Position numbers and translations under genes: made by a program | Shown here: one piece after another, positions 17,377 to 64,000 of the stretch | How positions within the stretch are numbered: the first letter of the stretch is position 1 | Layout of the letters: each line of letters starts with the position of its first letter | The notes under the pieces: model-generated | Database searches by the model: none | The model's input: only the letters and a program-made list of their open reading frames with translations | Told to the model about the DNA's origin: nothing | From: Rhizophagus irregularis | Lineage: Eukaryota > Glomeromycota > Glomeromycetes > Glomerales > Glomeraceae | DNA length: 64,000 bases | Reading direction: 5' to 3' | NCBI RefSeq assembly: GCF_026210795.1 | Contig: NC_089436.1 | Span: 620,001 to 684,000, forward strand

Positions 17377-19613
17377 ATGAGCAGTTCATCACAAAAACAT
17401 CAATATTCAGTAGAGGTAGCTGGAGCACCAGATATTCCTGGAGAAGGAAAACCTCGTCGAAATGCACTTTCTCCTGATAAATTAATTTTTCATCCTGATG
17501 GAGTTACTACTTTATATGAAAATTTTATGTTTGGTGTTAAAAAAGCAGGTAAAATTGATTTATATTGATTTAAATTGATTTAACATTGGTATAAAATAGT
17601 TTTAAAATTGATTTAAAATTGATTTAAAATATATTTTTATTATATCATCATCATTATATTAATATTTAATTAATAGGTGATGGAAACTTTTTGGGTCATC
17701 GAGAAATTAAAGATGGAGTTGCGGGTCCCTATATATGGGAATCTTATAATACGGTTCAAGCCCGGGTTGCTAATATTGGTTCCGGATTAAGAAAATTGGG
17801 ATTAAATCCTAAAGAACCCTTAGGATTTTTCTCAATTAATACTCCTGAATATGTAATTGCTCTACTTGCCTGTTATCAATATAATTTCATCCCTGTTCCA
17901 TTATATGATACATTAGGTACTGACGCTATTGAATATATTATAAACCAAACTGAGATGAAATATTGTTTTACCACTTCTAACAAAGGTCGAGCTCTTCTTG
18001 AAATGAAAGGATCATTACCATCTCTTCAAACTATTATTATTTCTGATAATTGTGATCCAGGATCAGAAAATCTTGCAAATGTTAGAATTTCAAATTTTTC
18101 CGATATTGAAAAAGATGGATCAGTTCAACCTGTTGAAGCAGAAAATCCTAAACCTGATGATATTGCTTCTATTTGTTATACTTCCGGTACAACTGGTACA
18201 CCTAAAGGTGTTGTCTTGACTCATAATAATTTTATGGCAGTAGTTGGCGGTATCCAGTGGCTTGCAAATGAAGGAAAGATGTTTAATGGAACGCCTAATG
18301 ATGTACACATTTCTTATCTACCTTTAGCTCATGTGTTTGAACTAGCAAATATGGCTTATATGACTTATGGAGGTGTTTCGATTGGATTTTATCAAGGTGA
18401 TACCTTGAAATTATTAGATGATATTGCTGAATTGAAACCTACCGTATTTATTTCTGTACCACGTTTACTTAATCGTGTTTATGATAAAGTAATGGCTGGA
18501 GTTAAAGTGAAAGGTGGTATTGCGCAATGGATGTTTAATGCAGCTTTTAATTCAAAGAAAGATGGCTTAAGTCATGGAAGTGTTGATCATTGGGGGTGGG
18601 ATAAAGTAGTTTTTGCTCCAATTAGAGCTCGACTTGGAGGTAGAGTTAAATATATGTTATCTGCTTCTGCTCCAATTGCACCGGATGTTATGGATTTTTT
18701 GAGAATCGCTTTTTCAGCTAATGTATTTGAAGGATATGGTCAAACAGAAAATGCTGGCGGTTTAACTATAGTAAGTATATAAATATACACCAATATTTTT
18801 TTTTCTTTCATTATTTTAATTTATGAATTTTTTTTTTAAAAAAAGTCCTTGGTTGGTGATACTGAATCCGGTCATGTTGGACCACCACAAGTTAGTTGTG
18901 AGGTTAAATTGGTTGATGTACCAGAAATGAATTATACATCTCAGGATAAACCTTATCCTCGAGGTGAAGTTTGTGTTCGAGGTCCTGTAGTCTTTCGAGA
19001 ATATTATAAACTTCCTGATAAAACTGCAGAAACCATTGATAAAGATGGATGGTGTCATACTGGTGATATTGGACTTTGGGATGATCAAGGTCGTTTAGTT
19101 ATTATTGATCGACTTAAAAATATCTTTAAATTGGCTCAGGGAGAATATATAGCTCCTGAAAAGGTATGAATTTTTAATTTCCTCTATCGTAAATGTGAAT
19201 AATTAGATTAATTTTATAATTTTTTTTAGATTGAAAGCATATATTGTAAACATGAACTTGTCCTTCAAGCATTTGTTCACGGTGAATCTTTACAAGCTTC
19301 ATTAGTAGGTATTATCGTTCCTGATGAAGAGATTCTTATGAAATGGACAGGACAAAATGGTCTTGAAGGCAAAACTTTTGAAGAAGTTTGTAAAAATGCA
19401 GACGTTAAAAATCATATTCTTCAAACTCTTATTAAATTTGGTAAAACAAATGATTTAAAAGGGTTTGAATGTGTAAAAAACATTTATTTGACGCATGAAC
19501 AATTTTCTACAGAAAATGATTTGCTTACTCCAACTTTTAAATTGAAAAGACATCAAGCAAAAATTAGATTTCAAAAAGAAATCCAAGCAATGTATGCTGA
19601 AATTTCTCAATGA
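17377..19613 (+). CDS. Long-chain fatty-acid CoA ligase (acyl-CoA synthetase)
   Basis: Four exons (17377-17548, 17677-18770, 18846-19163, 19230-19613) join without frame error to give 655 residues, a usual length for the family. The enzyme activates long-chain fatty acids in two steps: acyl-AMP formation with ATP, then transfer to CoA. Visible signatures are the AMP-binding P-loop [11 protein letters not shown] (about 225-235), YGQTE (about 411-415), the HTGDIG motif near 490, and the [19 protein letters not shown] fatty-acyl-CoA synthetase signature from about 510 across the last exon junction. There is no strong signal peptide and the C-terminus (EISQ) is not a peroxisomal tripeptide, so cytosolic or ER/lipid-droplet association is more likely. 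It pairs functionally with the acyl-CoA oxidase 6 kb downstream. Glomeromycotina depend on host-derived fatty acids, so such enzymes are central to their metabolism (known for the group). Confidence 0.95.
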
Positions 19614-33163: not shown

Positions 33164-34858
33164 TTATCTTTTATATAGATAATCAAAATACAAAGGGGAA
33201 GATTCAAATTTGATTTCATCTTGATCAACAATCTTTACATTTGTTTCTTCTTTTAATATTTTTAAAAAAGAAGATTCATCATCTTCAGCAAGATAACCAT
33301 CTATACCCAATAAATTGAATTCATCATTAATTTTTGCATAATCAATAATGAATTTTAAATAATCATCATTAAACATTATCATAATTAACCCTCTTAATTT
33401 ACATTTACAATTTTTCAATAACATATATAAAGCCTCATAATCAAAAAAACATGATAATTCTAAATATTTTAATGAAATAGGTAAATAATTTCCTAAATCA
33501 GAAATCAATTCATTTGTCCAACCAAAACTTCTTATACCAAAATATTTAAGATTTAAATTAGAAATTATTGATTGAACAGATTGAAAGAAACTTATAGAAT
33601 CAAGAGTTAATATTAAATGAGTAATATTAGGACAATGAATTGAAAGAGGTTTTGATAATATAATATAAGAAGTAGTTCTATCCAAACATAAAGTAGTTAA
33701 ATTAATTCCTGATAATTGAATTAAATTTGATATTGTTAAAGGAAGAAAATGATTATTTTTTAAATGAAGTGTATCTATTTTACATTTTATATTCTTTGGA
33801 GAGGGTGATGATGATGATGAAGATGATGATGATAAGGAAGTAATAGTATGAGATGAAGGAATAGTATGTGATGATAGTGATGTATTATTACTATTATTAC
33901 TATTATTGTTATTAATAGTATTGTTATTATGTTCAAGTTCATGACAATTTACAATTAAAAGAAATTTTAAATTATTACAATTTAATAAAATTTCAAAAGG
34001 AAATAAATTATTAAATTTAGTATCTATAAAATGTAATAAAACAAGAGAAGATTGATTAATTAATAAATTTAAAATTGATTTTGGTATATTACCATGAGAA
34101 TTAATTATAAATTTTTTAATATTTCTTTGAGATTTAATTATATTAAAAAATATTTCTTCTTTACCATCATCATTATTATTAAAATAAGAATCAATAAATA
34201 TATGAGATAAAGTATTACAAGATTGGGATAAAGATTTTAAAAAAGAATAAGTATTTGGTAAATTATATAAAGGTTGTGAATCAACACTAAATTGAAAAAT
34301 TTTAAGATTTGAAAATGAAGTAGAAAATGAATCTTTAGGTAAATAAGGAAAATCAGGATTATTTTCAAATGATTTAATATTTAAAAGATAAACTTTAGCA
34401 TTATTTCTCAAAAACATTTTAAATAAACTTTGAGATAATCTATGAGATATTTTGTTGATATAATTAGAATTATATTGATTATCAAATTGTGATGATGTTA
34501 TTGTTATAGTTGTTTTAACCCAAAGTTTTATACTTGAAAACATTGTTTCATAATAAAATTCTTTTAAAAAACTTGGATAATTAAATAAAACTTTTTTAAA
34601 AATTGGATAAAGTTCAGGATGATATTTACGAAGTTGTTTTTCTTCTTCATTAAGAAATAAAAGATATATTTCTATTAAACTAAGAGAAAATTTAATCGAA
34701 CGTTGCATTAAAGAAAATGGTTTACGCCAAAGTATAGGTATAATTGTTCTACACCATAATCTATTTACTAATAAACATGAATGTAAAGATGTTGTATCAT
34801 TTTCAAAATGTTTGAAAATTTCATTTATACATTCGATAGGAAAAGTTGACTTTGCCAT
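33164..34858 (-). CDS. F-box/leucine-rich protein, single exon, 564 residues
   Basis: The N-terminus is a clear F-box: FPIECINEIFKHFEND, then SCLLVNRLWCRTIIPILWRKPF at about residues 27-48. The rest is leucine-rich with repeated NL-x-x-L patterns, as expected for substrate-binding repeats of an SCF receptor. A low-complexity Asn/Ser segment (NNNNSNNSNN, then a run of Ser) at about residues 308-352 splits the leucine-rich region. It corresponds to a GAT/ATC and ATT triplet-rich tract at 33805-33925. No intron is needed, unlike the other F-box genes in the window. The ATG lies directly after the homopolymer-rich promoter. Confidence 0.9.
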   Translation of the reverse strand: MAKSTFPIECINEIFKHFENDTTSLHSCLLVNRLWCRTIIPILWRKPFSLMQRSIKFSLSLIEIYLLFLNEEEKQLRKYHPELYPIFKKVLFNYPSFLKEFYYETMFSSIKLWVKTTITITSSQFDNQYNSNYINKISHRLSQSLFKMFLRNNAKVYLLNIKSFENNPDFPYLPKDSFSTSFSNLKIFQFSVDSQPLYNLPNTYSFLKSLSQSCNTLSHIFIDSYFNNNDDGKEEIFFNIIKSQRNIKKFIINSHGNIPKSILNLLINQSSLVLLHFIDTKFNNLFPFEILLNCNNLKFLLIVNCHELEHNNNTINNNNSNNSNNTSLSSHTIPSSHTITSLSSSSSSSSSPSPKNIKCKIDTLHLKNNHFLPLTISNLIQLSGINLTTLCLDRTTSYIILSKPLSIHCPNITHLILTLDSISFFQSVQSIISNLNLKYFGIRSFGWTNELISDLGNYLPISLKYLELSCFFDYEALYMLLKNCKCKLRGLIMIMFNDDYLKFIIDYAKINDEFNLLGIDGYLAEDDESSFLKILKEETNVKIVDQDEIKFESSPLYFDYLYKR

Positions 34859-35136
34859 TTTTTTTTTGAGGTATTTTTTTTATTTTTTTTTATTATTTTT
34901 TTTAAAACAGAAAAAAAAAGGGGGGGAAATCATATAAAAAAGGGTTGTGTTCAAAAAAATTAACCGCATTTATATAATTTCGAAAATCGCATTTAATAGT
35001 GTAACCGGTGTGTGTAATTATGATTACCGATACCTAATATTCTAACTATTTAAATTAAAATATTTTTTTTTTTAGTGTACAATCCCCGTCTTTTTTTTCC
35101 TTCTTCTTTTCTTTTTTTTATTCAAATTTTTAAATA

Positions 35137-37287: not shown

Positions 37288-38320
37288 TTAATACTTTGTT
37301 GGGTAACCTTTACTATTTATAACAGCAGAGATACGACGAGGCATGCTACTAATAAGATTTTGATATTTATCAGCTTCAATATTTGACCATTCCTCTTGAA
37401 GTATTTCCCATAAATTCTCCCTGTTTTTTGGTAATGGCTTATGTGCCCGCACCTGCCTTTCCAATTCATCCCATAAATGCTCTATAGGATTCAAATCTGG
37501 GCTCTGTGCGGGCCAAGGAAGGCTGTTTACTTCATTTTCTTCTTCCCAACTCTTAACCACCCTTGCAGTATGTATAGGGGCATTATCATCCTGAAAAATA
37601 AAATTTTCCTGATCGTCTAGATTATTAATAAATGGTAATAAATAATTTTCCAGTACATTCATATATACTGTGGCTGTTATTTTACCTTCTAATTTAACTA
37701 ATGGACCAAGATTGTTTTTTGAAAAACATCTCCAAACCATCACTCCTTGTTGACCTGACTTTACTGTAGGTATTAAACACTCAATATCATATTTTTCATG
37801 TGGCCTTCTCCAAACCAATCTCCTACCATTTCCTCTGAATAATTCAAATTTGGATTCGTCGCTCCAAATAACACTGTCCCACTCATTTATCCATAATTTT
37901 CGTTCTTTGGCCCAGTTGAGTCTTTTAATTCTATTTGTTTCAGTAACAAGAGGTTTTCTTACTCCTACTCGACTATAAAAACCTTGTTCATGAAGATAAT
38001 TAAGTAAAGTTTTTTTGCATACATGTGTGGAAGTAGAATCAACGAAATTCTCATGTAACTCCTGAAGGGTCATTTTCCTATCTTTTTTAAGAATTCTTAT
38101 TAAATGTCGGCCATCCCTTTCTGTCATTTTAGGCGGTCTTCCAGTCCTAGGAGGGAGTGTTTCATCACCACGTATCTTGTAAGTAGAAATAACCTTATGA
38201 ATGGTACAACTGGGACAATTTAATGCTTCAGCTATCTTTCGTTCACTTACTCCACATTTTCCAAGCTCCAATGACTTCTCCACGTTCAAAAATTGTAAGT
38301 TCTCTTCGTTTGCAAGACAT
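37288..38320 (-). pseudogene. Tc1 transposase (DD34E) with an N-terminal frameshift
   Basis: The open frame from 38289 encodes 333 residues. It has the helix-turn-helix DNA-binding part (SERKIAEALNC, then TGRPPK) and a full catalytic core: Asp144 in WSDESKF, Asp235 in FQDDNAPIHTA and Glu270 in SPDLNPIEHLW. Exactly 34 residues separate the last two, as in Tc1. The apparent first 10 residues are out of register. A different frame starting at ATG 38320 gives the family-like head MSCKRRELTIFERGEVIG, and an extra A in the A-run at 38257-38260 breaks the two apart. A start at 38289 could still produce a protein lacking the first part of the DNA-binding domain, so the copy is probably inactive or impaired. 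The enzyme would cut and paste the element at TA sites. Confidence 0.9.
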
Positions 38321-38429
38321 AGTAGTTAAAGAAGGTTCTAAACAACGCATGGGAAAAAATTGGAGACAAATTTATAATAAAATGATCGACAAAACTGGTT
38401 TTAAAGTTAAACAAATAAATGATCTACAG

Positions 38430-38461: not shown

Positions 38462-39049
38462 TACACTGCGTAACTGCGCACTGTGACTATTATTTAAAAA
38501 TTCCATATATGTAATTATTCGGAAATTGGTAGATCATTAGAAAATTTTTTAATACTGTCTATTATGTCGGGATGATCTTTAATAAAAAATGAGATTTTCG
38601 TTGACATTTTTGATATACGAAATACACGCGGTTACTATTTATTAAATTTCTGAATTTTACTATGAAGATCATCACATATACAAAATTTATAGCTTTTATA
38701 ATATAACAAAAAACAGCCATAAAGTTGGTTTATCCCGAATTTTACCCCAAATACCCCACCATTTTAAACCAAGCTTATATTAGAAAAATCTTCATAAAAC
38801 TCCGGAATTTTACATTAAATCTTATTAATTTCCTAATTCATTTTCATAATGAATTTCTTTCGATTGTTTGATGAACCATTTTTTATGACAAATAATATTT
38901 AAATTCTAAAAGCTTAAGGGAACGGATGGTCTAAAAATAGCGGAGATTTTCTTAACATACGGTATAAGAATCCCAAAGGGTAGGAGTTAATGACAACTTT
39001 TTTTACACAATACCATTACAAAATTTTAACTTGAAAATTTTAACAACAG
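38462..39049. other. Intergenic between transposon and membrane-protein gene
   Basis: No gene recognised. The last 100 bases are the presumed promoter of the following gene. Confidence 0.5.
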
Positions 39050-40305
39050 ATGATTTCACGGAAAATAAAAATAAAAAAATCACATATAAAAATGAAAAAT
39101 TATTCAATCTGGAGCATAATTTTTATAATTATTTCAATAATTAATATTATATCAGTATTACTTCTTATGATAGTAATAATAAAATCACCATCATATTTAA
39201 CAAAATGGACATTATTTCAATTATGTATAGCAGCATTAGGTTATAGCATATCAACATTACCTTCGATATTAATATATGGTGATAATTTATTGGAGAAAGC
39301 ATTTACATCAAATTTATGTATGATTCAATTTAGAGTTGCATCTTTTTTCTTTTATCCTTTAAATTTATTACCTATTGAATTATCATTTTATTTTTACGGA
39401 CTTTTAAAACCAAAGTTAGATTTAAATATAGAAAAAAAATGGTTTTGGACTTTAACTTCAATAACTTGGATTCTTTCTTTATTTTATAATTCTTTAATAT
39501 TAATTATTACTCGTAATGATGAGAATGGAGGTATTATAGCAACAAGATTTTATTGTGAAGCTTACAAGGTAACAAATAATTGGAATCATTTTTGGGTTTA
39601 TCAATTTATTGTATCTATTTTTTTAGTTGCCACAATAATTTCACGTGAGTTTTTCAAATATATATAAATATTTTTTTTTTTCGCGAATTCTTCTTTGAAT
39701 CTTTCTTTATTAATTTTATAAATCTTCATTATTAGTCTTTTCGATAATTATATTATATCGAAAATGGAAAATATTTAATAATAATCAAAATAGAAGGACG
39801 GCTATTAAATTGGGTTATGCAGTACGTTTATTTATTTATATAATTATATATACTGCATTATTAGGATGTTATATTATTTCGGATATAATAAAACAATTAA
39901 GAATTGGTAATAAAGAATTAACTAATTACGCTGAAGATAGTTATTGTTTTGGTGATTTTACATCTGCAATTGCGTGAGTATTACATGTATAATAAACCTT
40001 TCCTCTTTTATTTAGATTGGGACTGAATTACTTAATTTGTACTTTTTCTTTTCTTTTCTAGTGGAATAATTTTATTACTAATATTTGGAGGAAATCGTAC
40101 GGCGGCAATATGTTTACCGTGTTGTTATTATGTTCCACCACATAAAGCTTATCAACCTTTTGTTCCTCCGTCATTTACTCCTCCACAAACTGATATGTTC
40201 GAAATTATTGTAAATGATAATAATAATAATGTTAATGTTAATGTTAATGAATATATTGAAAATTCTGAAATTACATTAGATTTAGATTTTCCCAGAGAAA
40301 ATTGA
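39050..40305 (+). CDS. Seven-transmembrane (GPCR-like) protein, three exons
   Basis: Exons 39050-39644, 39736-39973 and 40062-40305 join in frame to 358 residues. Hydrophobic segments fall at about 20-45, 55-77, 92-118, 132-153, 178-199, 223-245 and near 277-290, that is seven helices. The C-terminal tail is short and polar. Landmarks shared with the gene at 54.9 kb are KWTLFQLCI, IYGD, QNRRTAI-x-LGYAVRL and a final AAI-x-LPCCYY-x-PP. Both intron positions and phases are identical in the two genes, so they are paralogues. Topology suggests a receptor, but no family signature for a known GPCR class is evident, and a transporter or other membrane role is not excluded. A second Met at residue 15 (MKNYSIW) is an alternative start. 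Confidence 0.85.
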
Positions 40306-40812
40306 AAATCTATTACTAATGCTTATAACCGCAGTGCATGCAGTGGAGGGAAGATGAAAATTTGGCGCAAATGGCGCAGAACGCGTATTAATAATGAGTA
40401 ATAGTTTGTACAACTACAAAAAATTTAAGTTTTTTCCATATATGTTCTATACAAGATTGATCTATGATATCATTCGTCATTTATTGGTGACAAAGTTTTT
40501 TCTATTTATCCGTTTCCGTTCGAATTTCTCGGTTAAAAATTCATTGTTTATAAGAAAAAATTGATTCTTATATTCTCATAAAATGTATTGTTGTATTGTT
40601 TTGCATGTATTTTGAAAATCAAATACAATTAAAATTGGTTAAATACGCGTGATTATAAAAAAAATTTGATTTTATATTTGAATGTAATTTTTTAAAAAAA
40701 AAATTGAAATATATATATAAAGGGAACCGAATTTTGGTTTTTTTTTTTTAAAAAAAAAAAAGAAAAGAAAACAAAAACAAAAAAAAAAGCAAAAAAAAAG
40801 CATCATTTTACA
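40306..40812. other. Intergenic, promoter of the arrestin gene
   Basis: AT-rich with purine runs just before the arrestin ATG. No gene seen. Confidence 0.5.
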
Positions 40813-42225
40813 ATGATCTCTTCAAACCCTAATCGTATCTATGATTCAAATTTACAAGATAAATCATCCCACGATTGTATCATTGATAAATCTAATCCTA
40901 TTAATAATATATCAAATGATATTATACAAATAAATTTATTTGATCCAGTTGTAATAATTCGTGGAAATGTAAATGAATCAGTTGGATCATTATTAAGAGG
41001 TGAAATCATATTAACTTTAAATAAACCAATGAAAATTGGTTCTATTGAATTGAAATTTATTGGAAGAACTAAAATTGTTCGTCCAAATGGTGGTAAGTAT
41101 CATTATTATTATTATCTTTTTTTTTTTACCCTACAAATTTTTTTTTAATAAAATTATATTCTCGAATTTTCTTTGTTTCTTTTAGCATTCGGAACAATAG
41201 ACAAATATAAAGAAGAGATTATTTCACAAAATATAAATTTATTGAGTCATTCAACATCTAATACTACTATTACATCAACATCCTCTTCTTCATCTACCTT
41301 TCCGATTAAAATCTTTTCCAAACCATTATTCTCATCCCCAAGCGTTAAGGAACGTTATTATACATTCTCATCGGGAACACATAAATTATCATTCGAAATT
41401 CATTTACCAGGATCATTACCGGGGTCGGTTAAATCAGATTCAGGATCAGTAAAATATAAATTAAAATTTAAGATTGATTATATAACAACATTATATTTGA
41501 AAACTCTTTCATCGACTCGTGAAGTTGAAATAATAAGAATGTTAACAGATTATATTAATTATAGTGGTATAGAAATATCCAGAAGTTATGATAAAATTAT
41601 AGATTATCAATTATCAATACCAAAAAAATCCTACACTCTTGATGATATTATTCCTATTAATATTAAAATAATACCTTTAATTAAACAATTTAGATTACAT
41701 TCAATAGAATGTTTCTTATTACAGAAAATTACTTATATGAAAGATGATGATCATACTGAAACTATTAAGAATTCAAATTATAATAATATTATTCGTTTTA
41801 ATGAACATTATGATAAAATTTATGAAACAAATATGAATTTTGAATTAAATAAATGTAGGGATATTATTATACATCATAGTGTAGATACTCCATTAATTAG
41901 AATTAAGCATGAATTAAGATTTTGTTTATTAGTAAGTATTACAAAAAGTGATTATGGTATTAAAAGTAAATTATATTTTAATATAGGAATTAATTTATTA
42001 AGTCGTTTGGTTAGAAATGATGATGTTTTATTACCGAATTATGATGATGTTAGTTTTTATTGTCCTTGTCATCCTGAATATCAAAGAATCGCTGAATTGA
42101 TTCTTGGGAATTCTTATAATAATAATAATAATATAGATGATGAGAGGTCATGTGATGGGTTAACATGTAATTTTTGTAATCTTTCAAATAATAACAAACC
42201 ACCACGATATAGTAAGACGATATAG
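40813..42225 (+). CDS. Alpha-arrestin-like protein with a C-terminal PPxY motif, two exons
   Basis: Exons 40813-41092 and 41186-42225 (93-nt intron, GTAAGT...TTTTAG) give 439 residues. The N-half matches an arrestin N domain: FDPVVIIRGNVNESVGSLLRGEIILTL at about 43-69 and the KIGSIELKFIGRTK strand at about 76-89. The second half follows the arrestin C pattern (YDKIIDYQLSIPKKSYTLDDIIPI). The tail ends KPPRYSKTI, with a PPxY motif at 432-435. In fungi such proteins are adaptors that bind the WW domains of the Rsp5/Nedd4 ubiquitin ligase and direct endocytosis of plasma-membrane transporters or receptors. The PPRY is what supports this role here. The adjacent seven-helix protein is a possible client only by proximity. 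Confidence 0.85.
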
Positions 42226-42605: not shown

Positions 42606-45600
42606 TTATTTTTTTTCCTTTTTCAATTTCTCTAATCCTTGTTGATAAATGGAAGGTCCAATTATAGAACTAACTTTCGATGAAGTTTTGGTTACTTCCG
42701 GTTCAGTAAAACTTTCTTTCGTTTCAGTATTGCTTTCTATTACATTTCCTTTTGTGTCTTTCTTGGTAGTTGTCACTTTAGTAATTGTTTTTCCATTTTC
42801 ATCGGTTTCTATTTCTGTTGTAGTTTCTGTTACAATTCCATTCACATCCGTCTGGCTCATAGTGTTAGTTCTTGTTTGTTTTCTCTTTGGCGTTTTTGAA
42901 CTACTAGTTTTAGCATCACCGCTAGTTGTGACAATTGTTTCTCCCGGATTTGATCTTGACGTTTGAGTATTGGATTCTAATTCATTACCCTTTTGATCTT
43001 TTTTGGTGGTTACAACTGTAGTAGTTGTTGATCCATCATCTTCGATTACTTCTGTCGTTGTAGTTACAGTCATAATTCCATGCTCATCTGTTTCATTTTT
43101 GGTGAAAGTTCTTGTTTGTTTCCTCCTTGGATCATTATTGTAAGAAACTGTTCTTGTTGTTGTTTCATCACCTGTGATATATGTTTCTTCCGGTTCAGTA
43201 ACAAATTCGGTAACACCATACATTGTTTCAGTATTGGTTTCTAACACTTTACCACTTGAATCTTTTTTGGTGGTGGTCACTTTAGTAATTGTATTGCCAT
43301 TTTCATCGGTCTCTGTTTCTGTTACAGTCACTGTTACAATTCCATTCTCATCCGTCTCAGTACTAGTTTCAGTATTTACTTGTTTTCCCTTTTGCGTTTT
43401 TGAACTACCAGTTTTAACATCTCTTGTTTTTTCTGTATATGTCTTTGTATCGGTATCAATTACTTTACCGTTTGGATCTTTTTTGGTGATGATCACTTTA
43501 ACTGTTGTTATTCCATTTATTCCATTTCCATCGGGCGTTCTTTCTGTTACAGTTTCTGTTACAATTCCATTCTTATCTGTATCAGTCATAGTTTCAATAG
43601 TAGTTTGTATTTCTATTTGCCTTGTTGAACTACCAGTTTTAACATCACTTGTTTTTTCTGTATATGTCTCTGTATTGGTATCTATTACTTTACCGCTTGG
43701 ATCTTTTTTGGTGGTGATCACTTTAACAGTTGTTATTCCATTTATTCCATTTCCATCGGGCGTTCTTTCTGTTACAGTTTCTGTTACAATTCCATTCTCA
43801 TCTGTCTCAATCATAGTTTCAATAGTAGTTTGTATTTCTATATTCCTTGTTGAACTACCAGTTTTAACATCACTTGTTTTTTCTGTATATGTCCTTGTAT
43901 CGGTATCTATTACTTTACCGCTTGGATCTTTTTTGGTGGTGGTCACTTTAACAGTTGTTATTCCATTTATTCCATTTCCATCGGGCGTTCTTTCTGTTAC
44001 AGTTTCTGTTATGATTCCATTCTCATCTGTCTCAATCATAGTTTCAATAGTAGTTTGTATTTCCCTTTGCGTTGTTGGACTACCAGTTTTAACATCGCTT
44101 GTTTTTTCTGTATATGTCCTTGTATCGGTATCTATTACTTTACCGCTTGGATCTTTTTTGGTGGTGGTCACTTTAACAGTTGTTATTCCATTTATTCCAT
44201 TTCCATCGGGCGTTCTTTCTGTTACAGTTTCTGTTATGATTCCATTCTCATCTGTCTCAATCATAGTTTCAATAGTAGTTTGTATTTCAGTAATATTTTC
44301 TATTTCCTCAACGGTAGTACTTGGTGATGATGTAATAACAATATAATCAACTTGACTTTTGCCTTTACTACCAGTAGTAGATTTGGTGGTAATGTATTGT
44401 TTATCATCACTTGTTGTTGTAGTATTAGGTGCGGTGGTAGTTTTAGTCGTTACAGTTCTAACTATTGTGATATATTCTTCACCATTAATTTTAGTAATGT
44501 ATTCTTCATCATTAGTTGCTCTGGTAACATATTCTTCATTACCAATTTTAGTAATATATTTTCCATCAATATAAATGGTAATATATTCTTTACCAGTATC
44601 TGTTTTAGTAATATGTTTATCTCCATCAGGTGTTGATGTTTTTGTGGTGGTAGTTTTAATAGTATCAACTGGTTTATCTTTTTCTTTATCATCATCTAAA
44701 TAGATAATACTATATCTTACTGTTGGTCCATCTGCAGCTGTAACTCCAGAAATTGCTGCTCCGGTAGCAATATTTATTTTATCAGTTTTGTTGTTGTTCT
44801 TTGGAGCGGGGCCAAGACCATAATATACTGGAATACCTGCTCCATATGAATATCCACCTCCACCACCTGTTGATGTATTTGGTGTATCATCATCATCTTT
44901 CTTTGTTGCTTCAAGGTACTTTCGAGCATTATCATAATTTTCTACTGTACTATCTCTAATTGTACTATCAATATTGTTTCTAGGTTTAGTCTTCGTTCCT
45001 GTAGTTTCTTTTTCTTCTGTTGTTTCTATTGGTTCCTTGATTTCTTCGGTTACTTCGGTTTCTTTAGTTTTTTTATCGGGTTTTCCAACATCAGATAGAA
45101 CAGTAGGATCTTTTGGTTTCTTACCAAAATTAAGTATTCCGGGAAGTCCCGGTTTCTTAGGACTCTTACTATCATCTTTATCAGTTGGTGATGGTTTTGT
45201 TGGTTTTTCTGATGTAGAATCAGCTGGTTTAGGTTTATCTTTACCAGTGGGAATATTTCCAAAAGTATTTGGATTATCTCTATCATGAGGTTCACCATCT
45301 TGAGGTCCACCATCTTGAGGTCCATCTTGAGTTCTTGGTAAATTATGTGTAGTAGTTGTTTTATTAGCATCAGGAGCAAAACCATCATCTTTCTCATCAC
45401 TTGAATCATCATCACTACTACTACTGCTAGTGCTAATAGCATCAAGAGGTTTTTCACCTTGAGATCCTGTTGGTCCTTTACCATAACAACATGAGGAACA
45501 TAATATAGAAATGGATTTCAATACTATAACCATTAAACATGATGATAATACGAGAATTGGTACAATAGCTGGTTTAACATGAGAACCTATATATACAGAA

Positions 45601-48600
45601 TAAATAATTAATTGAGGTAAATCTTCAAAGAATACTACAGCTCCTGTTGCAAATAGAATTGATTTTCTTCCTTCTTCTGAAACTGGTGCACTCAAACTTT
45701 CTACACCACCAACTCCTGATGATACAACTTGTAATGCATCCGTATCAAGGTATGATGCTGTTTTAAATGTATTTGCTATTCCACGATGATTTTTCCACCA
45801 ATTATTAAATTCTTTACGATTTCTAGCATTTTCTCTTTTAATTAAATTTCTTGTTAACATGAAATTTAGAACTATTGGTAATACAAAAAATAAAACACTA
45901 TAAATAAAAGAACAAATGATTATATCGTTAGAAAAGGTTATGATGTAAAAGAAATATATATATATATATATATAATTTTTCTTACGTTGTTGGGAGAACC
46001 CATTTGAAATCTCTTCCGTGAAGTGACATGAATGCAATATCAAAAGCTATATCAATTGGGATCAAAGCAGATAAGAAAATTGGCAAAAAGTTATTTGCTC
46101 CTTTTTTACATCTCAAACGAGCAAAAATAAATAATAAAGTCAATATAAGGAATAAGAGAAGGGCTGCAAGAAGGAATCCCCAATATTTTCTCCAAAGTTT
46201 TTCAGTTCGAGGAGCTCCATTTGATGCGTCAAGAAGACTGGCACTATTACCATTTGCTAATGAATTAATACCTCTATTTTTAACATCATCATCTAAATCT
46301 TGTACAAGTTTTTCTGAACTAACTTGATTAGCTTCTGTTGTTTTCTTAATATCAACTCTCATTATAACTTGATCTTCTTTTGTATGACCATCATATTGAT
46401 AACCTACAGTTGATAAACGGGTTCGTTCACATGAAATTGCACTAGCTAATTCATCACTCATTGTATCTGCAAACGCTTCTCTATCTTTTGAAGAAAGTTT
46501 TGTATAATAAGACGTTCCTTCGGTTGATAATCGGATAATTGCACTTTCGTCTTCTGTTGAAGAAGAAAAAAAAAATCTTTAATATTTGACAAGAAAAAAA
46601 AATATCTCGAATTTCGTATTATAAATTCAAAAAAACTTGCCTCCTTCTTGATATGTAAAAGGTGTTGCTGATTCTGAAAAAAAAAAAAAAATTTTTTTTT
46701 TGTTGTTAATATATTATGTTGACGACGTAAAAAAAAATCATATAACATTTTATAATATATATTACTTACTTGTAGTAAAATTCCAAATTTGTGGTCTAAT
46801 ACCAATAACATTTTGTCCATTTGATTGTTCCTTTACAAAATCATTATCAACTTGAACATAATAAGGTGCATTGAAAGCATCTATAGCACCATATAATACA
46901 CTAAATGTAACGGCAGTACCATTTTCGAATGTAACAAATTCTCCATTTGTTGATGAAACAGATTGTTTTAAAACTACACTATTTCCATTAACTTGATAAA
47001 CGCTAACGTTTCCTGTTGAACTAGCTATAGGTACCGTATATAAAATGGTAAATTTTTGTTCTGATGCTGTGTCCAAAGAAATTTCAGCACCTTTTGATGG
47101 AGTTGTGTTAGATATTTTTGAACTTCCATATCCTCCTGGTCCTCCTGGTGATTTAGAAGTTCCACCTTCAACTATAAAAATAAAAGGTAAAGGAAAAAAA
47201 AAAATTTTTTTTTTAATATATCTTACATATTTATATATAAAAATATATATAATTTTTTTTAAAAAAAAAATTACTTACTTGAAGAGAAACTCGTAAATGA
47301 ATCAGATGATTCAATTGTAATGGCTCCACCATTATTTTCATTAGTTCCAACATTTGAAGCATCTTTTGGAATAGCGACAATAGTGTTATTAGGAAGTACG
47401 ATTCCAGAAGTGTAAAATCCTAGAGGAAGATCCCAAGTTCCACCATAATTTCCTTTATTATCAATAATATATGTAATTACGTCCCCACTAGTTCTATCTG
47501 TTGTAAAAATAGCATAGCCACCATAATTTAATGGTTTGATATCCGTAATAACCTTATTATTCGTATATGAAGAAAGATCTAATACTGTTGTAGTAGCATT
47601 TCCATTACTTAAGAAATCAATTTCGGTATATGTTGCTTGATTTGCATTATTTGTTGTTTGAATAACACAACTGTAGCCAGATGATTGATATGCTATATTA
47701 CATACGAGTATTTGTATACTAGTTGCCGTATTATCTTGATAAATTGTAAAAGGTCCTCTAACTGATTGTGAATAATCTTTTTGTATAAATGTAGTAAATA
47801 CTGATCCACCATTGCTTGTTGTTACACAATATCCACCATCTTCCGTTGAGAACCCGTTTACAAGTTCCGTGTTAAATGTTTCTACAGTAGTTATTGTTTT
47901 AGATGAAATTACTGATACTGCACCATTTCTATCTCTAAAAAAAAAAAGTTAAATTATATTATATTAATTAAACGAGTTAAATAAAAAGAAATGATACATT
48001 TATATTATTAATTCAACTTACGGAGATCCATAAATAACCCCAAAGACTTCTTTACTTGCGTATTTATTACACATGTATAAAAATCCTTTACCATAAGAGT
48101 TTTCAACAATTTGACCATCATTACATGAACTCTCGAACGTAACAGTACTGTATTAAATAAATAAATATATATATATATATTAAATAAAATAAGAACGTGT
48201 GATGGAATAATTATTTACATACCTTCTTTCAAAACCTTTCCAATCAATCACACTACCACAAGTATCACCATTTGATGAAGGGTTACAAAGATATGTAACC
48301 AAAATAAATCCTTCCGTGATCGCATGAATTTTGATTTTATCCGTCATAAGTAAACTACATTCTGGTACATCAGGATAACTAGTACAAAAACCAGTTAAAC
48401 ATCTTGCAGCTTGTGGATTTTGATTGCATACATCACATCCTGAAGCGTTTTTATTATAAGTACAATCATTACATCCAGGTAAAAATGGATTACTAGCACA
48501 ATTCGGTATACACTCGGGAGCTCTTGGATATATGGTACAATCAAATTTTTTACCATTACATCCTACCGTTTTTGCAGTAGCACCAGCACAATTGGGAAGA

Positions 48601-49523
48601 TTTGCACAACCTGCGGCAGAAGGATTTTTACCACAATCTGGAGCATTTACACAATTTGGACCATATGGATTTGTTGTTGTACAATCAAGTGGTGCACTTG
48701 ATGGATTAGCCGAAGGAGAAGTTGAAGGAGTAGCAGGAGTAGGAGTAACTGGAGGAGGAACACCACCACATTCGGGACTTGTTGGATAAGTTTGACAATT
48801 TAATTTCCCATTATCACATCCGTCAGCACCGGGAGTCTTTCCGCAATTTGGAACATTAGCACATCCCGGAGGTGGATTTGCAGATCCACAATCAACTTTA
48901 CAACCGGGACCATAAGGATTATCATCGCAAGGAGATTTTGGAACAGCTTTACAACCACCAGCTTTTTCACAAATATCTTTACAACCTTCAAGATTAGGAT
49001 TTTGACTACAAGAATTTTCAGCAGATTTTGGATCTTTACATTTATCAGGATATTTAGAACAACATTCAAAAGTAGTTGCTTTAGCACCATCACATTCAGG
49101 ATGTCTTTTAACAAGATGAATATTTGCTGACATTGAAAAAGTTTGATGCCTTTTAGTCAAAGTTGATTTTGAAATTGAACAAAAATTATCAGCAGGAATA
49201 GAATGTTTTTCAACATTCAAAGATTTTGAAGTTCCATCAGGTTCGATTACATTAAACCATAAATTTTGTACATTACAATTTATGTTAGGTTCTTGTTTTG
49301 TTAATCTTAATAATATAGTACCATCCAGATAACTAGTACTTTGAATTACTTTAAGATCACTTTCAGTATTAAGAGTTAAAGGTTGTTGAGCAAAAGTGAA
49401 CTGAGGTAAAAAAATTGTAATAAAACAAATATAAAATAATATCATTATAATAGGTCTATTTTCATTTAAAAAAAGTCCAAAAGAAACTCGTTCTTCTATC
49501 CTAAACTTATTTCGTTTCAACAT
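42606..49523 (-). CDS. Large mosaic surface protein, seven exons, about 2,125 residues
   Basis: I reconstruct exons 49523-48223, 48147-48022, 47934-47279, 47171-46770, 46673-46641, 46553-45986 and 45897-42606; phases agree at every junction. Exon 1 has a signal sequence (about 25-46, ending TFAQQ) and a Cys-rich region of short C-x-x-NP-x-x-x-GC modules (about 145-400) with a Pro/Thr/Ser linker. Exons 2-4 encode a beta-rich ectodomain (for example GTWDLPLGFYTSGIVLPNNT); exon 3 contains no ATG. Exon 5 is a 33-nt microexon with a GC donor. Exons 6-7 carry about five membrane helices (near 964-985, 994-1015, 1030-1045, 1108-1132, 1139-1162), including FFEDLPQLIIYS. The last 900 residues are acidic/Thr-rich with 75-residue tandem repeats. 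Function is unknown; a cell-surface sensor or wall-linked protein is my inference. Confidence 0.8.
43370..44290 (-). repeat. 225-bp tandem repeats (75 codons), four near-identical copies
   Basis: A marker word (GTTTCAATAG on the + strand) recurs at 43591, 43816, 44041 and 44266, exactly 225 bp apart. Each unit encodes a segment such as TVTERTPDGNGINGITTVKV followed by TTKKDPSGKVIDTDT and YTEKTSDVKTGS. Two middle copies are almost identical in DNA. Three more diverged units follow toward the C-terminus of the protein (43370 down to about 42690). The array lies wholly in exon 7 and keeps frame. Confidence 0.95.
46641..46673 (-). other. 33-nt microexon with a GC-AG intron downstream
   Basis: The acceptor CAG ends at 46674. 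The exon encodes ten whole codons (SATPFTYQEG) plus partial codons and is followed by GCAAGT at 46640 rather than GT. No nearby GT donor keeps the frame with the next exon (acceptor CAACAG ending 46554). It is a minor but known donor class in fungi. Confidence 0.7.
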
Positions 49524-54355: not shown

Positions 54356-54932
54356 TTGTACTGTTACTGCTGTATATTATTTTAGTTGAAGAAAACTTAT
54401 ACCACGTTTTAAAACCGTCCATGTTTCACTCATGTAAGGACTTACATGTGTCGATTTTTTGATAGGTTATGTCGACTGTTGCTCGTAGCTTATAATTCCT
54501 GTCTACCAACCAGTTTTAATACCGAAATGCAACTTAAATACCTTTTTTTTTTTAAGCTTACGGCTAAGATCCTCAGGCTAAACAAACAAAAAACAAGGTC
54601 GCGAGTGCTTTTTTTAGACCCCTAATAATTCTAAATTAAAATATTACTCAAATTCGACCCATGTTTCATCATCCTTCTTCTTCTCGGTTTCTCCCATTTC
54701 CTCTTCCACTTACTTCCTTTACTTATCCAGTACTCATTACTTCCAATTAAAAGTGGAATGTACGATTCACTCCTTCTTTCGTTTCGATATCAAATTTCTA
54801 ACTATAGATAATTATAAATCTTTTAAAAAAAAAAAAAAATTACATACATATATATTTATTGAATTTTTTCTTTCTTACTTTCTTTATTTATTTCTAATAT
54901 TATATATATATATATTTTTTTTTTGTTGAGTT

Positions 54933-56170
54933 ATGCCTGAATATTCACCCTTGGTCGTTCTTTATATTACTACACACTTGATAAGCCTAATTTTATTATC
55001 TATTCTCGTTTTTCTCATTTTAAAGACCGGATCTTTTATTTCGAAGTGGACTTTATTTCAACTATGCATATGCTTATTTGTCTTGGGTTTATCGAGTTTA
55101 CTTACCGTAATAATATACGGAGATAGTATGAAAGATAAAGCTCTCGACACTCCTTTGTGTATAATTCAAAATAAAATTATATTATTAATTTATTGTCCTT
55201 TAAAATTATTTCCGGGAGCTTTATGTATATATTTATGGTTCGCGGTAGCACGTTCTAATTATTCTATAGAACAAAATTATTTTTGGTATTTTAGCGGTGT
55301 AATTTGGGTCACAACAATATGTGTAAATATAGTTGGTTTTAGGGAAAATAGAAAGGAAAAAAATTGGGGCGTTATACCGGGTGAATTTTTTTGTAAATCG
55401 ACTCCTTCTAATACAGTATGGTTGTTTTATCTTATTCCAACAACTGTATATGCCTTTTCTTCGCTATTAGTTTCAGGTAAAATACATGATCTTCGATCCA
55501 CAAATGGTATTTTCATGTGTCACCATTTTTTATAGTTTGCAACACGAATTAATTTTTTTTTTTTTTACCAAAAAAAACACAGCACATTCTAGTTATATTC
55601 TATGGGGTCGATGGCGTAATTTTAATCAAAAACAGAATCGGCGAACAGCGATAGATCTTGGTTATGCTGTCAGATTAACCGTTTTAAGTGGTTTTTATTC
55701 GATTTTACTTTTAGCTTCATTGATACCTTCAGTTACTGAGAAAATTGATAATGATATGACAGCCAACAATCAAACCATTACATTTCTTGATTTTGCCCCT
55801 GCATTTTTGTACGTATGATTAATTAAATTCCTTTTATATATATATTTCATAAATTCATTTATATATATATATTTCTTTTTTTTTTAGTGGTACAATGCTC
55901 TTTATGATTTTTGGAACAACAAAATCAGCAGCAATCTTTCTTCCATGTTGTTATTATATTCCTCCAAGTGAACGTAAAAGACAAAGATCAATGATAAGTC
56001 AACAATATGAAAATTCTTCAATAAGATCTCGTATAAATGATTCTATTGAATTAGATGTAATAATTAAACAAGATAGTTCTGGAATTAAACAAGAAATTTC
56101 TGGAACCGAATCAATATTTGAATCAAATTTTGCAACGGTTTCAACTAGGAATTCAATACTTGAAGATTAA
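54933..56170 (+). CDS. Seven-transmembrane (GPCR-like) protein, paralogue of the 39-kb gene
   Basis: Exons 54933-55476, 55583-55808 and 55888-56170 join in frame to 350 residues. The acceptor at 55581-55582 was chosen because it gives an alignment with the 39-kb paralogue without gaps (HSSYILWGRWRNFN against FSIIILYRKWKIFN, then QNRRTAI in both). Seven hydrophobic segments, the IYGD and LGYAVRL motifs and the final LPCCYYIPP are shared. The C-terminal tail is longer, Ser/Ile-rich and polar (IRSRINDSIELDVIIKQDSSG), and looks like a cytoplasmic regulatory tail that could be phosphorylated. A receptor role is inferred from topology alone. The start is the first ATG after a long T run and directly precedes helix 1. 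Confidence 0.85.
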
Positions 56171-62009: not shown

Positions 62010-64000
62010 TCATTCATTCATTTCACTTAACCATTCATGTCTTAATGCCATTTCCGCGGTGAAATTATTATCTTTTGCAGATTCAAGTAATAGATTTTTA
62101 AATTGAATAAAACTATTAGAATAATTATTATTAAAACATTGATCTGTACCTTTTAATTCATCCATAAGTCTTCCAACTTGATAAATATCATAACAAGCGA
62201 AATATGGTTTACCAATAACAGCTTGTTCAGGCCATCTATTCCAAAGAGAAAATTGTAAAATTTCATTAACAGGACCTCCTAATTCTAAATCAATTATTAA
62301 CCAATCACCATTATCTTGTCTTAAAATATTTCCCCAATAAATATCTCTATGAGTCCAATTAACTTGATGCATATCTTTAAGAACTTGTAAAATAGTTTTG
62401 ATCATTGATTTAACTTCCAATTCATTCTTTGGATAATAATAATATCCTACAGGATGTAAAAAAATTTTACAAGAACCATCTTTAGTTAAAATTGGATAAC
62501 TAAGATTACCTTCTAAATCAATACAATGAACTAAATTTTTAATATGAGAAGTTTCCAAATAAATTTTTCTTATAGTATCATAATTAAAAGTTTCTTTCAT
62601 TTTTTGTGTTGATAAAGATTTTTTTACGAAATTTCCCATAAATTCTATACTAGTTCCACCATCACGATTTATTGTTAAATATAAAGGATGAGTGGATTTG
62701 TTTATCTTAAATTGTACCCAATTACGTCTTATTGAATCCAAAACATTATAAATATTAATAACAGTACGAATCATTCTTAATCTATCCAAGATCCTATCCA
62801 AATCAAAATCTTGAGATATTAATATAATCTTATATCTTAATGGATCAAAAACATACCATCTTAAAATTGGACCTTTTGATATATAAACAAATTTAAAAGG
62901 TAAATTTGAATAATAAATATCTTTCCAATGAGTTTTCTCAATAATATTTTGAATACCAACATCCCATTCAATATTTTCGGGTAATTCAACACCATGAATT
63001 ATCAAATGATCATTAATCCAACACATCCAATCAGGTCTTAAAAGATCTTCCTTTGATTGAATAAAATTACGTGCCATATAAATCCATTGTGATTTTTGAG
63101 ATTGTAAACAACTTAAAGTTCCTTGAATTAATGCATCAATAATTAAATTATAACAAATTAAATTATTTTCTTGACAAGATGAATTGGAAGTATATGGATA
63201 TGTCAAAGCATTAATAAATGGCAATGAAATAGATGAAGATGGAATAATATTTCCAAATTCTCTAAAACATTGTTCTTGAGGTGTGACATATGAATATATA
63301 TTAGAATTTTCTTGATTATTTAAAAGACAAAATGATGGAACCAATACTCTTATTGGTAATGGAGTCAAAAGGAATCTTTTTAATTCATATATAGAAGGAA
63401 CTTTGGATAATTTTCTTGTAATAAGTTGTTGAAATAAATCCATTTTGTTGAAGAAATTTTCCTAATTATAATAATACATTACATATGAAATCATATAAAA
63501 AATATATATATAGTATTTTATATATAATTAATATAAATATATAATTTATATAATATATAAGTGAATTATTTTTTTAACTTACTTTTGATATATTATTATT
63601 TCTTAATAAATATGGTTTTTGTTCCAAATCATTAAATTTTAATAATAATTCTAAAAAATAAAAAATAAAATCATCAAAATAATTATATTTATAATTATTA
63701 TACAAAAATTTTGATCAAGTAATTTAATGAGTAATTACCTTCAGGTTCATAATAATTCTCATTATTATAATATCCTAAGAATATCAAAATTCAAAAGTTT
63801 GTAAATAAAAAAAAATTTCAATTTTTTTTTAATTAATAAATTAAATTGTAACATTTTCTTACCATGTAAACGTAAAATTTCAGCTTCTAAATGTAAAATT
63901 AATAATCCTGAAATACCCATTTTAAAGAAATCATTTCTTGTCATTTTCAAAAAAGTTTTCCCATCAATTTGTTTCAATCTAAATTTATATTCAGATTCTT
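62010..64000 (-). CDS. SAM-domain kinase-like protein, 5' end outside the window
   Basis: Minus-strand exons: from beyond 64000 to 63863, then 63774-63739, 63650-63583 and 63461-62010, joined in frame. The first visible exon encodes the C-terminal half of a SAM domain (KQIDGKTFLKMTRNDFFKM, then GISGLLILHLEAEILRLHG), a protein-interaction module. A short linker follows, then about 480 residues. These comprise a long N-lobe region with no obvious motifs and a C-lobe with HRDIYWGNIL and DLELGG. HRD and the Asn are intact, but the DFG position reads DLE, as in fungal kinase-like families related to FunK1 and Crinkler-type kinases. The final residues repeat into the satellite block downstream. Likely a signalling kinase; substrate unknown. 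The Met at 63443 is internal, not the start. Confidence 0.85.

Follow-up and report, generated by a model that had tools for sequence, protein, structure and literature searches.

A seven-exon gene of Rhizophagus irregularis as an enlarged member of a predicted family of receptor-like membrane proteins

The window is a 64,000-nucleotide stretch from the genome of the arbuscular mycorrhizal fungus Rhizophagus irregularis. Its gene at positions 42606-49523 (minus strand) belongs to a multigene family and is enlarged within it, carrying a Cys-rich insert and a Thr-rich repeat tail in addition to the common core. The signal peptide, a beta-rich ectodomain, an immunoglobulin (Ig)-like domain of the Big_5 type, a membrane-proximal domain, and a block of about five helices make up one conserved architecture. 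There is about an even chance that the members are cell-surface, receptor-like membrane proteins with a ligand-binding ectodomain and a cytosolic tail.

Seven minus-strand exons (49523-48223, 48147-48022, 47934-47279, 47171-46770, 46673-46641, 46553-45986, and 45897-42606) join in frame to 6,378 nt, encoding 2,125 amino acids and a stop codon without any internal stop. The six introns have clean splice sites and are 75-107 nt long, with a GC content of 0.08-0.21 versus 0.32-0.36 in the exons. Five of them have GT-AG borders, while intron 5 (46640-46554), which adjoins the 33-nt microexon (exon 5), is of the GC-AG type. The GC content by codon position (0.41/0.45/0.14) is strongly biased. Exon 3 was previously described as lacking an ATG; it indeed has no in-frame Met when its frame is read by eye, and the chance of 218 open codons is about 1e-8 given the base composition of the exon. 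The description of one gene whose seven exons agree in frame and phase is also borne out, both by the uninterrupted frame and by introns shared with paralogs (see below), and the predicted seven-exon, 2,125-residue gene model is confirmed to the base. That separate genes, or a pseudogene, were wrongly joined into one model is very improbable: although the six introns are inferred and include a GC-AG intron beside a 33-nt microexon, the conserved introns of the paralogs, a paralog with a single frame, the frame open throughout, and the codon-position bias all argue against it. On the plus strand, a 400-codon open frame (43144-44346) lies opposite the tail repeats and is probably a by-product of the repeat.

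All parts of the protein are encoded on the minus strand. The signal peptide region (residues 1-45; 49389..49523) has its hydrophobic stretch at residues 25-43 and a possible start at Met1 or Met27, as judged from the sequence and from the N-termini of paralogs. The N-terminal beta-type segment (residues 46-135; 49119..49388) is recognised by tblastn matches in some of the 20 paralog loci that were modelled, and by blastp (E 9e-5) in one of six paralog frames, that of the L024 paralog. It is followed by the Cys-rich insert (residues ~140-394; 48342..49106), which has 32 Cys within residues 140-396. The beta-rich ectodomain (residues 395-703; 47146..48341) extends from the end of exon 1 to the start of exon 4. 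Next come the Ig-like (Big_5-type) domain (residues 704-839; 46641..47145, including the microexon), assigned through Pfam matches of paralogs, and, after intron 5, the membrane-proximal domain (residues 840-964; 46180..46553), which has matches in paralogs and none to a described family. The first part of the membrane block (45986..46179) contains TM1 and TM2 with the conserved D..LDI motif, and intron 6 (45898..45985) separates it from the second part (45486..45897), which holds TM3, a weakly hydrophobic segment (D.EALN.LSS in the family consensus), the EDLPQLII helix, and the last helix. The C-terminal tail beyond the last helix (42609..45485) has ~960 residues, of which 22% are Thr. A repeat search placed in it tandem 225-nt (75-residue) repeats at 43292-44288 (4.4 copies, 93% matches), and degenerate copies are also present closer to the C-terminus.

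Several other open frames surround the gene. An arrestin-like gene (40708-42225, plus strand) converges on its 3' end; in Pfam, frame 41152-42225 matches Arrestin_C (E 4e-15) and Arrestin_N (E 5e-7), and frame 40708-41148 gave no match. Two plus-strand frames, 39044-39667 and 54930-55535, are similar to each other, have several hydrophobic stretches, and look receptor-like by eye, with no Pfam match at E <= 0.01. Further frames encode a Tc1/mariner-type transposase (37288-38325, minus strand; HTH_Tnp_Tc3_2 E 2e-16, DDE_3 E 1e-12) and an AMP-binding enzyme (17670-18782, plus strand; E 9e-71), and two more, both under the Pfam cut-off, resemble an F-box protein (33164-34879, minus strand; E 0.0013) and a protein kinase (62010-63461, minus strand; E 2.5e-6).

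The genome searched comprises 146.7 Mb in 32 contigs, and the gene sits on contig 8. The exon carrying the membrane-proximal domain and the first two helices has at least 58 matches in this genome at E <= 1e-3, and the membrane block of one paralog (L015), taken as a second query, has at least 110. Merging these 168 matches by position gave at least 87 places, the window gene included, of which 43 were found with both queries, 13 with the first only, and 31 with the second only; this number is a lower bound and, conversely, some places may be fragments. Among the 87 places, sequence was read in 22 stretches, beside loci of the first query. The places are spread over 23 of the 32 contigs, and 32 of the 87 lie within 50 kb of another, compared with 4.9 on average, and 17 at most, when places were drawn at random 500 times along one line of the genome's length. 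On contig 16, two pairs of places stand in opposite orientation, one at 382189-382713 (minus strand) and 407505-408029 (plus strand), the other at 3965915-3966379 (plus strand) and 3987368-3987832 (minus strand). The equal match lengths and (nearly) identical scores within these pairs suggest recent inverted duplications.

The order of the parts recurs across the family. Exon 3 matches 34 places including the window gene, and in 32 of these it lies upstream of a membrane-side match on the same strand. The two exceptions are neighbouring ectodomain matches on contig 12 at 5.10 Mb (5102405-5102812 and 5104912-5105337, both plus strand), for which no membrane-side match follows within 3.5 kb; they are possibly soluble or strongly diverged members. 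Models of 20 paralog loci were made with tblastn and a homology-guided protein-to-DNA splicing script that was blind to the introns of the window gene. An intron was counted as shared when it lay within 3 residues and had the same phase, and some models stop short of the upstream positions. The intron after residue 1028 (intron 6, phase 2) is shared by 19 of the 20 models, the L017 paralog having no intron there. The others are shared by fewer models: 11 for the intron after residue 828, seven after 433, six after 475, three after 694, and two after 839, the last being the GC-AG intron on the 3' side of the microexon. Three more paralog introns fall at intron places of the window gene but differ in phase. 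Introns of more than ~400 nt produced by the script look artefactual and were kept before counting; the counts quoted are those of introns at the positions of the window gene.

In the L017 paralog (contig 14), one uninterrupted frame of 941 residues holds the core, which recurs in a model of 828 residues on contig 3. Since the order and the introns recur and the core is contained in one paralog frame, the seven exons are not unrelated pieces joined by chance. The preliminary description had regarded the protein as a mosaic of parts that look like unrelated pieces. This idea is only partly right; for the core it is not supported, as the same order recurs at 32 of the 34 places. The Cys-rich stretch is present at no fewer than three loci of the genome, the window gene among them, and the 75-residue tail repeat in the window gene only, among the matches listed. 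Counted from a point within the last helix, the frames of the 20 modelled paralogs continue for 2-313 residues, and for more than 140 in four of them; an additional intron may have truncated some of the short values. Of the four long-tailed paralogs, L013 and L022 likewise have Thr/Glu-rich tails. The nearest paralogs, on contig 26 at 2.06 Mb and on contig 28 at 3.22 Mb, have the module order, the intron positions, and the Cys-rich stretch in common with the window gene. Their identity to it in the membrane-side exon is 52% for contig 26 and, over part of the query, 55% for contig 28; for the membrane block the figures are 49% and 45%. However, their frames end 29-30 residues past the point inside the last helix, whereas the tail of the window gene has 960 residues.

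When residues 1-1581 of the protein were scanned against Pfam, that is, all but the last 544 residues, no match was obtained at E <= 1, and when each core module was scanned in family members, only scattered weak matches besides Big_5 appeared. Counterparts of residues 704-839 match Big_5 (PF13205) in five of 17 members, with a best E of 1e-5, and two of nine paralog segments scanned singly exceed the Pfam cut-off (24.3 and 26.6 bits versus 23.6); the Ig-like copy of the window gene itself has no Big_5 match in the Pfam scans. In the PDB, the family profile of this part found YcnJ, a copper transport protein (E 2.9e-4). Therefore, through its paralogs, the Ig-like part is recognisable as a putative Big_5-like domain. 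Matches of the same part in NCBIfam came from one member each (best E 0.0066) and were taken as chance. Big_5, a bacterial Ig-like domain, covers only one of the modules of the family, and no other convincing match to the core was seen in Pfam or the PDB, which agrees with the earlier statement that no named family with this order of parts is known.

The beta-rich ectodomain contains a Cys pair that is invariant in all 10 aligned members. By eye and by pattern alone, it looks propeller-like. Its weak matches were to two beta-propeller proteins, GH43 (E 0.012, one member, Pfam) and a Tako8 chain (E 0.28, PDB), but a larger profile of the domain found neither of them in the PDB, only an unrelated chain at 0.06, and a comparison of the domain with itself (0.5%) indicated no clear repeat. 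AlphaFold predictions reached a pLDDT of 38.7 for exon 3 alone, from the single sequence, and of 55.3 for exon 6 alone, on the membrane side, values too low for a fold search. A SEA domain was considered for residues 840-964 and rejected, as it is absent among the 16 Pfam families matched at E <= 10 by the 15 members scanned; neither Pfam nor PDB profile searches gave a convincing match for this membrane-proximal domain. Matches to 7TMR-DISM_7TM (E 0.0045), DUF4420 (E 0.0051), ProRS-C_2 (E 0.0055), and Jagunal (E 0.0076), like that to GH43, each involved one or two members and were taken as chance. Outside the fungus, short patterns, one for each collection, gave nine matches in bacterial and archaeal genomes and 19 in IMG/VR, none of which was confirmed as a relative. 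A search of titles and abstracts, with a partial coverage that excluded subscription papers and preprints, found no publication on the family.

The membrane block consists of three strong helices, a weak acidic segment, the EDxPQ helix, and the last helix, and the alignment shows that the motifs D..LDI, P....N, and EDxPQ are conserved across the family. In the 16-member alignment, the mean number of Lys and Arg residues is 3.1 in the TM1-TM2 loop and 1.2 in the TM2-TM3 loop, while the flanks of the weak fourth segment have 3.9 and 3.2. These loop charges favour five transmembrane passes, an extracellular N-terminus, and a cytosolic tail. The earlier view of a surface protein with about five helices is supported. 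The weak segment may count as a sixth helix, which would put the tail on the outside of the cell.

The side on which the tail lies bears on another, unlikely, explanation, in which the protein would serve structurally, as an adhesin or as a link to the wall. Its ectodomain, its Cys-rich insert, and, if outside, its repeats would hold hyphae to surfaces or to wall polymers without any signalling. A tail of 22% Thr with tandem 75-residue repeats and an insert with 32 Cys are in keeping with such a role, and bacterial surface proteins often contain Big_5-like Ig domains. However, adhesins seldom have a multi-pass anchor, and the loop charges place the tail in the cytosol. Furthermore, beyond the three or more loci with the insert and the window gene with its tail repeat, neither was found at other family places among the matches listed, and just four of the 20 models have a frame reaching more than 140 residues past the last-helix point.

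The membrane block itself may alternatively be the working part, as a lipid scramblase or channel of the XK-related (XKR) type that is regulated by the ectodomain, which is improbable. By eye, the acidic pair conserved in the second helix (D..LD) and the EDxPQ motif are reminiscent of XKR helices. The motif order of the family (D..LDI / P....N / EDIPQ.II) can be compared with D..TD and ETAPQL/ESAPQL in XKR8 and XKR4, and the hydrophobic helices of XKR8, XKR9, and XKR4 likewise contain, in a similar order, acidic residues and a PQ motif. Yet these three proteins have no detectable profile similarity to the family. The 16-member profile had no match of any kind in the PDB at E <= 10, XKRs included; PF09815 was absent among the 18 Pfam families matched by 16 members at E <= 10; and hhalign against an alignment of XKR8, XKR4, and XKR9 gave a probability of 0.2%, below the 0.7% of a reversed-sequence control. 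A six-frame search of the genome with PF09815 was also empty, but control genomes were equally silent and the exons are short. With the PDB profile, Pfam, and hhalign all against it, assignment to the XK-related family is unsupported by sequence, and XKRs are not known to have an ectodomain of this kind. The XKR type is retained as an alternative for the mechanism alone. Neither the sequence of the block nor its profile has a significant match to any solved structure. An ion-channel or TRP-type block was rejected as well, with no ion-transport family among the Pfam families matched by 16 members at E <= 10. Manley et al. (2023; PMC10234402) describe a TRPV-like group of 32 genes in R. irregularis, likewise a set of related membrane-protein genes; the 16 members of the present family that were scanned have no ion-channel match in Pfam within this threshold.

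Omega was estimated for four closely related paralogs of contigs 17 and 26 with our own counting script of the Nei-Gojobori type on realigned open frames (L024 has two frames, of which one was used). All six pairs gave an omega of 0.99-1.33 over 559-658 codons, none significantly greater than 1, while against a more distant paralog the same four genes gave 0.63-0.71 in four of four pairs, below 1 at p <= 0.0013. Between L014 and L015 there are 348 changes, and ~7% of single changes would create a stop; some 24 stops would thus be expected without constraint, and none is observed in these frames, which were preselected as having at least 500 residues. The proteins of this young group change fast under some constraint. 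Their omega stays near 1 without significantly exceeding it, which gives no significant sign of diversifying or positive selection. The ectodomain of one pair seemed hypervariable (47% identity, versus 94-96% in the Ig-like and membrane parts), but this stemmed from spurious long introns in the L016 model and was discarded.

These rates, together with the size and clustering of the family, could be expected of a self/non-self recognition repertoire for hyphal fusion or strain recognition, in which the receptor would meet a partner protein on another hypha. There is a precedent in another fungus, as DOC-1 and DOC-2 of Neurospora crassa are kind-discrimination proteins (PMC4831770). Such a repertoire is nevertheless improbable, because omega does not significantly exceed 1 in the pairs of the young group (Fisher p 0.26-1) and because DOC-1 and DOC-2 are predicted to have one or two helices and differ in make-up, with no Big_5-like domain mentioned in the part consulted (PMC4831770). 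They are fungal recognition proteins and would be analogues in role only, and only if recognition of this kind applies.

Overall, from the anatomy of the protein, a surface-sensor function would be the most likely one. Several features favour such a receptor: the order conserved at 32 of 34 places, the conserved introns, the Big_5 matches of paralogs, the charges that put the N-terminus outside, the clustering, and the fast change. Against it stands the want of a convincing profile match in Pfam or the PDB for the beta-rich, membrane-proximal, and membrane domains. A possible mechanism for the surface sensor can be described as follows. The signal peptide would export the protein, and the folded ectodomain, made up of the beta-rich, Ig-like, and membrane-proximal domains, would face outwards and bind a ligand or a partner protein. 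Binding may then be passed via the membrane-proximal domain to the bundle of about five helices with its conserved acidic residues, and the cytosolic tail would recruit signalling partners. In the window gene, the Cys-rich insert may lengthen the stalk or add a binding surface, and the Thr-rich repeats would lengthen the tail.

The family is apparently expanded and uncharacterised, and it has no name in the libraries used. More tentatively, R. irregularis may possess about a hundred multi-pass sensors with an undescribed fold, which arose partly by local duplication and perceive the host, neighbours, or the environment; the window gene would be an outlier among them, with an amplified signalling tail and a Cys-rich binding part. 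A large receptor-like family whose core mostly has no named domain would provide concrete candidates for tests of expression, binding, and silencing, and its membrane block may be a new target for structural work.
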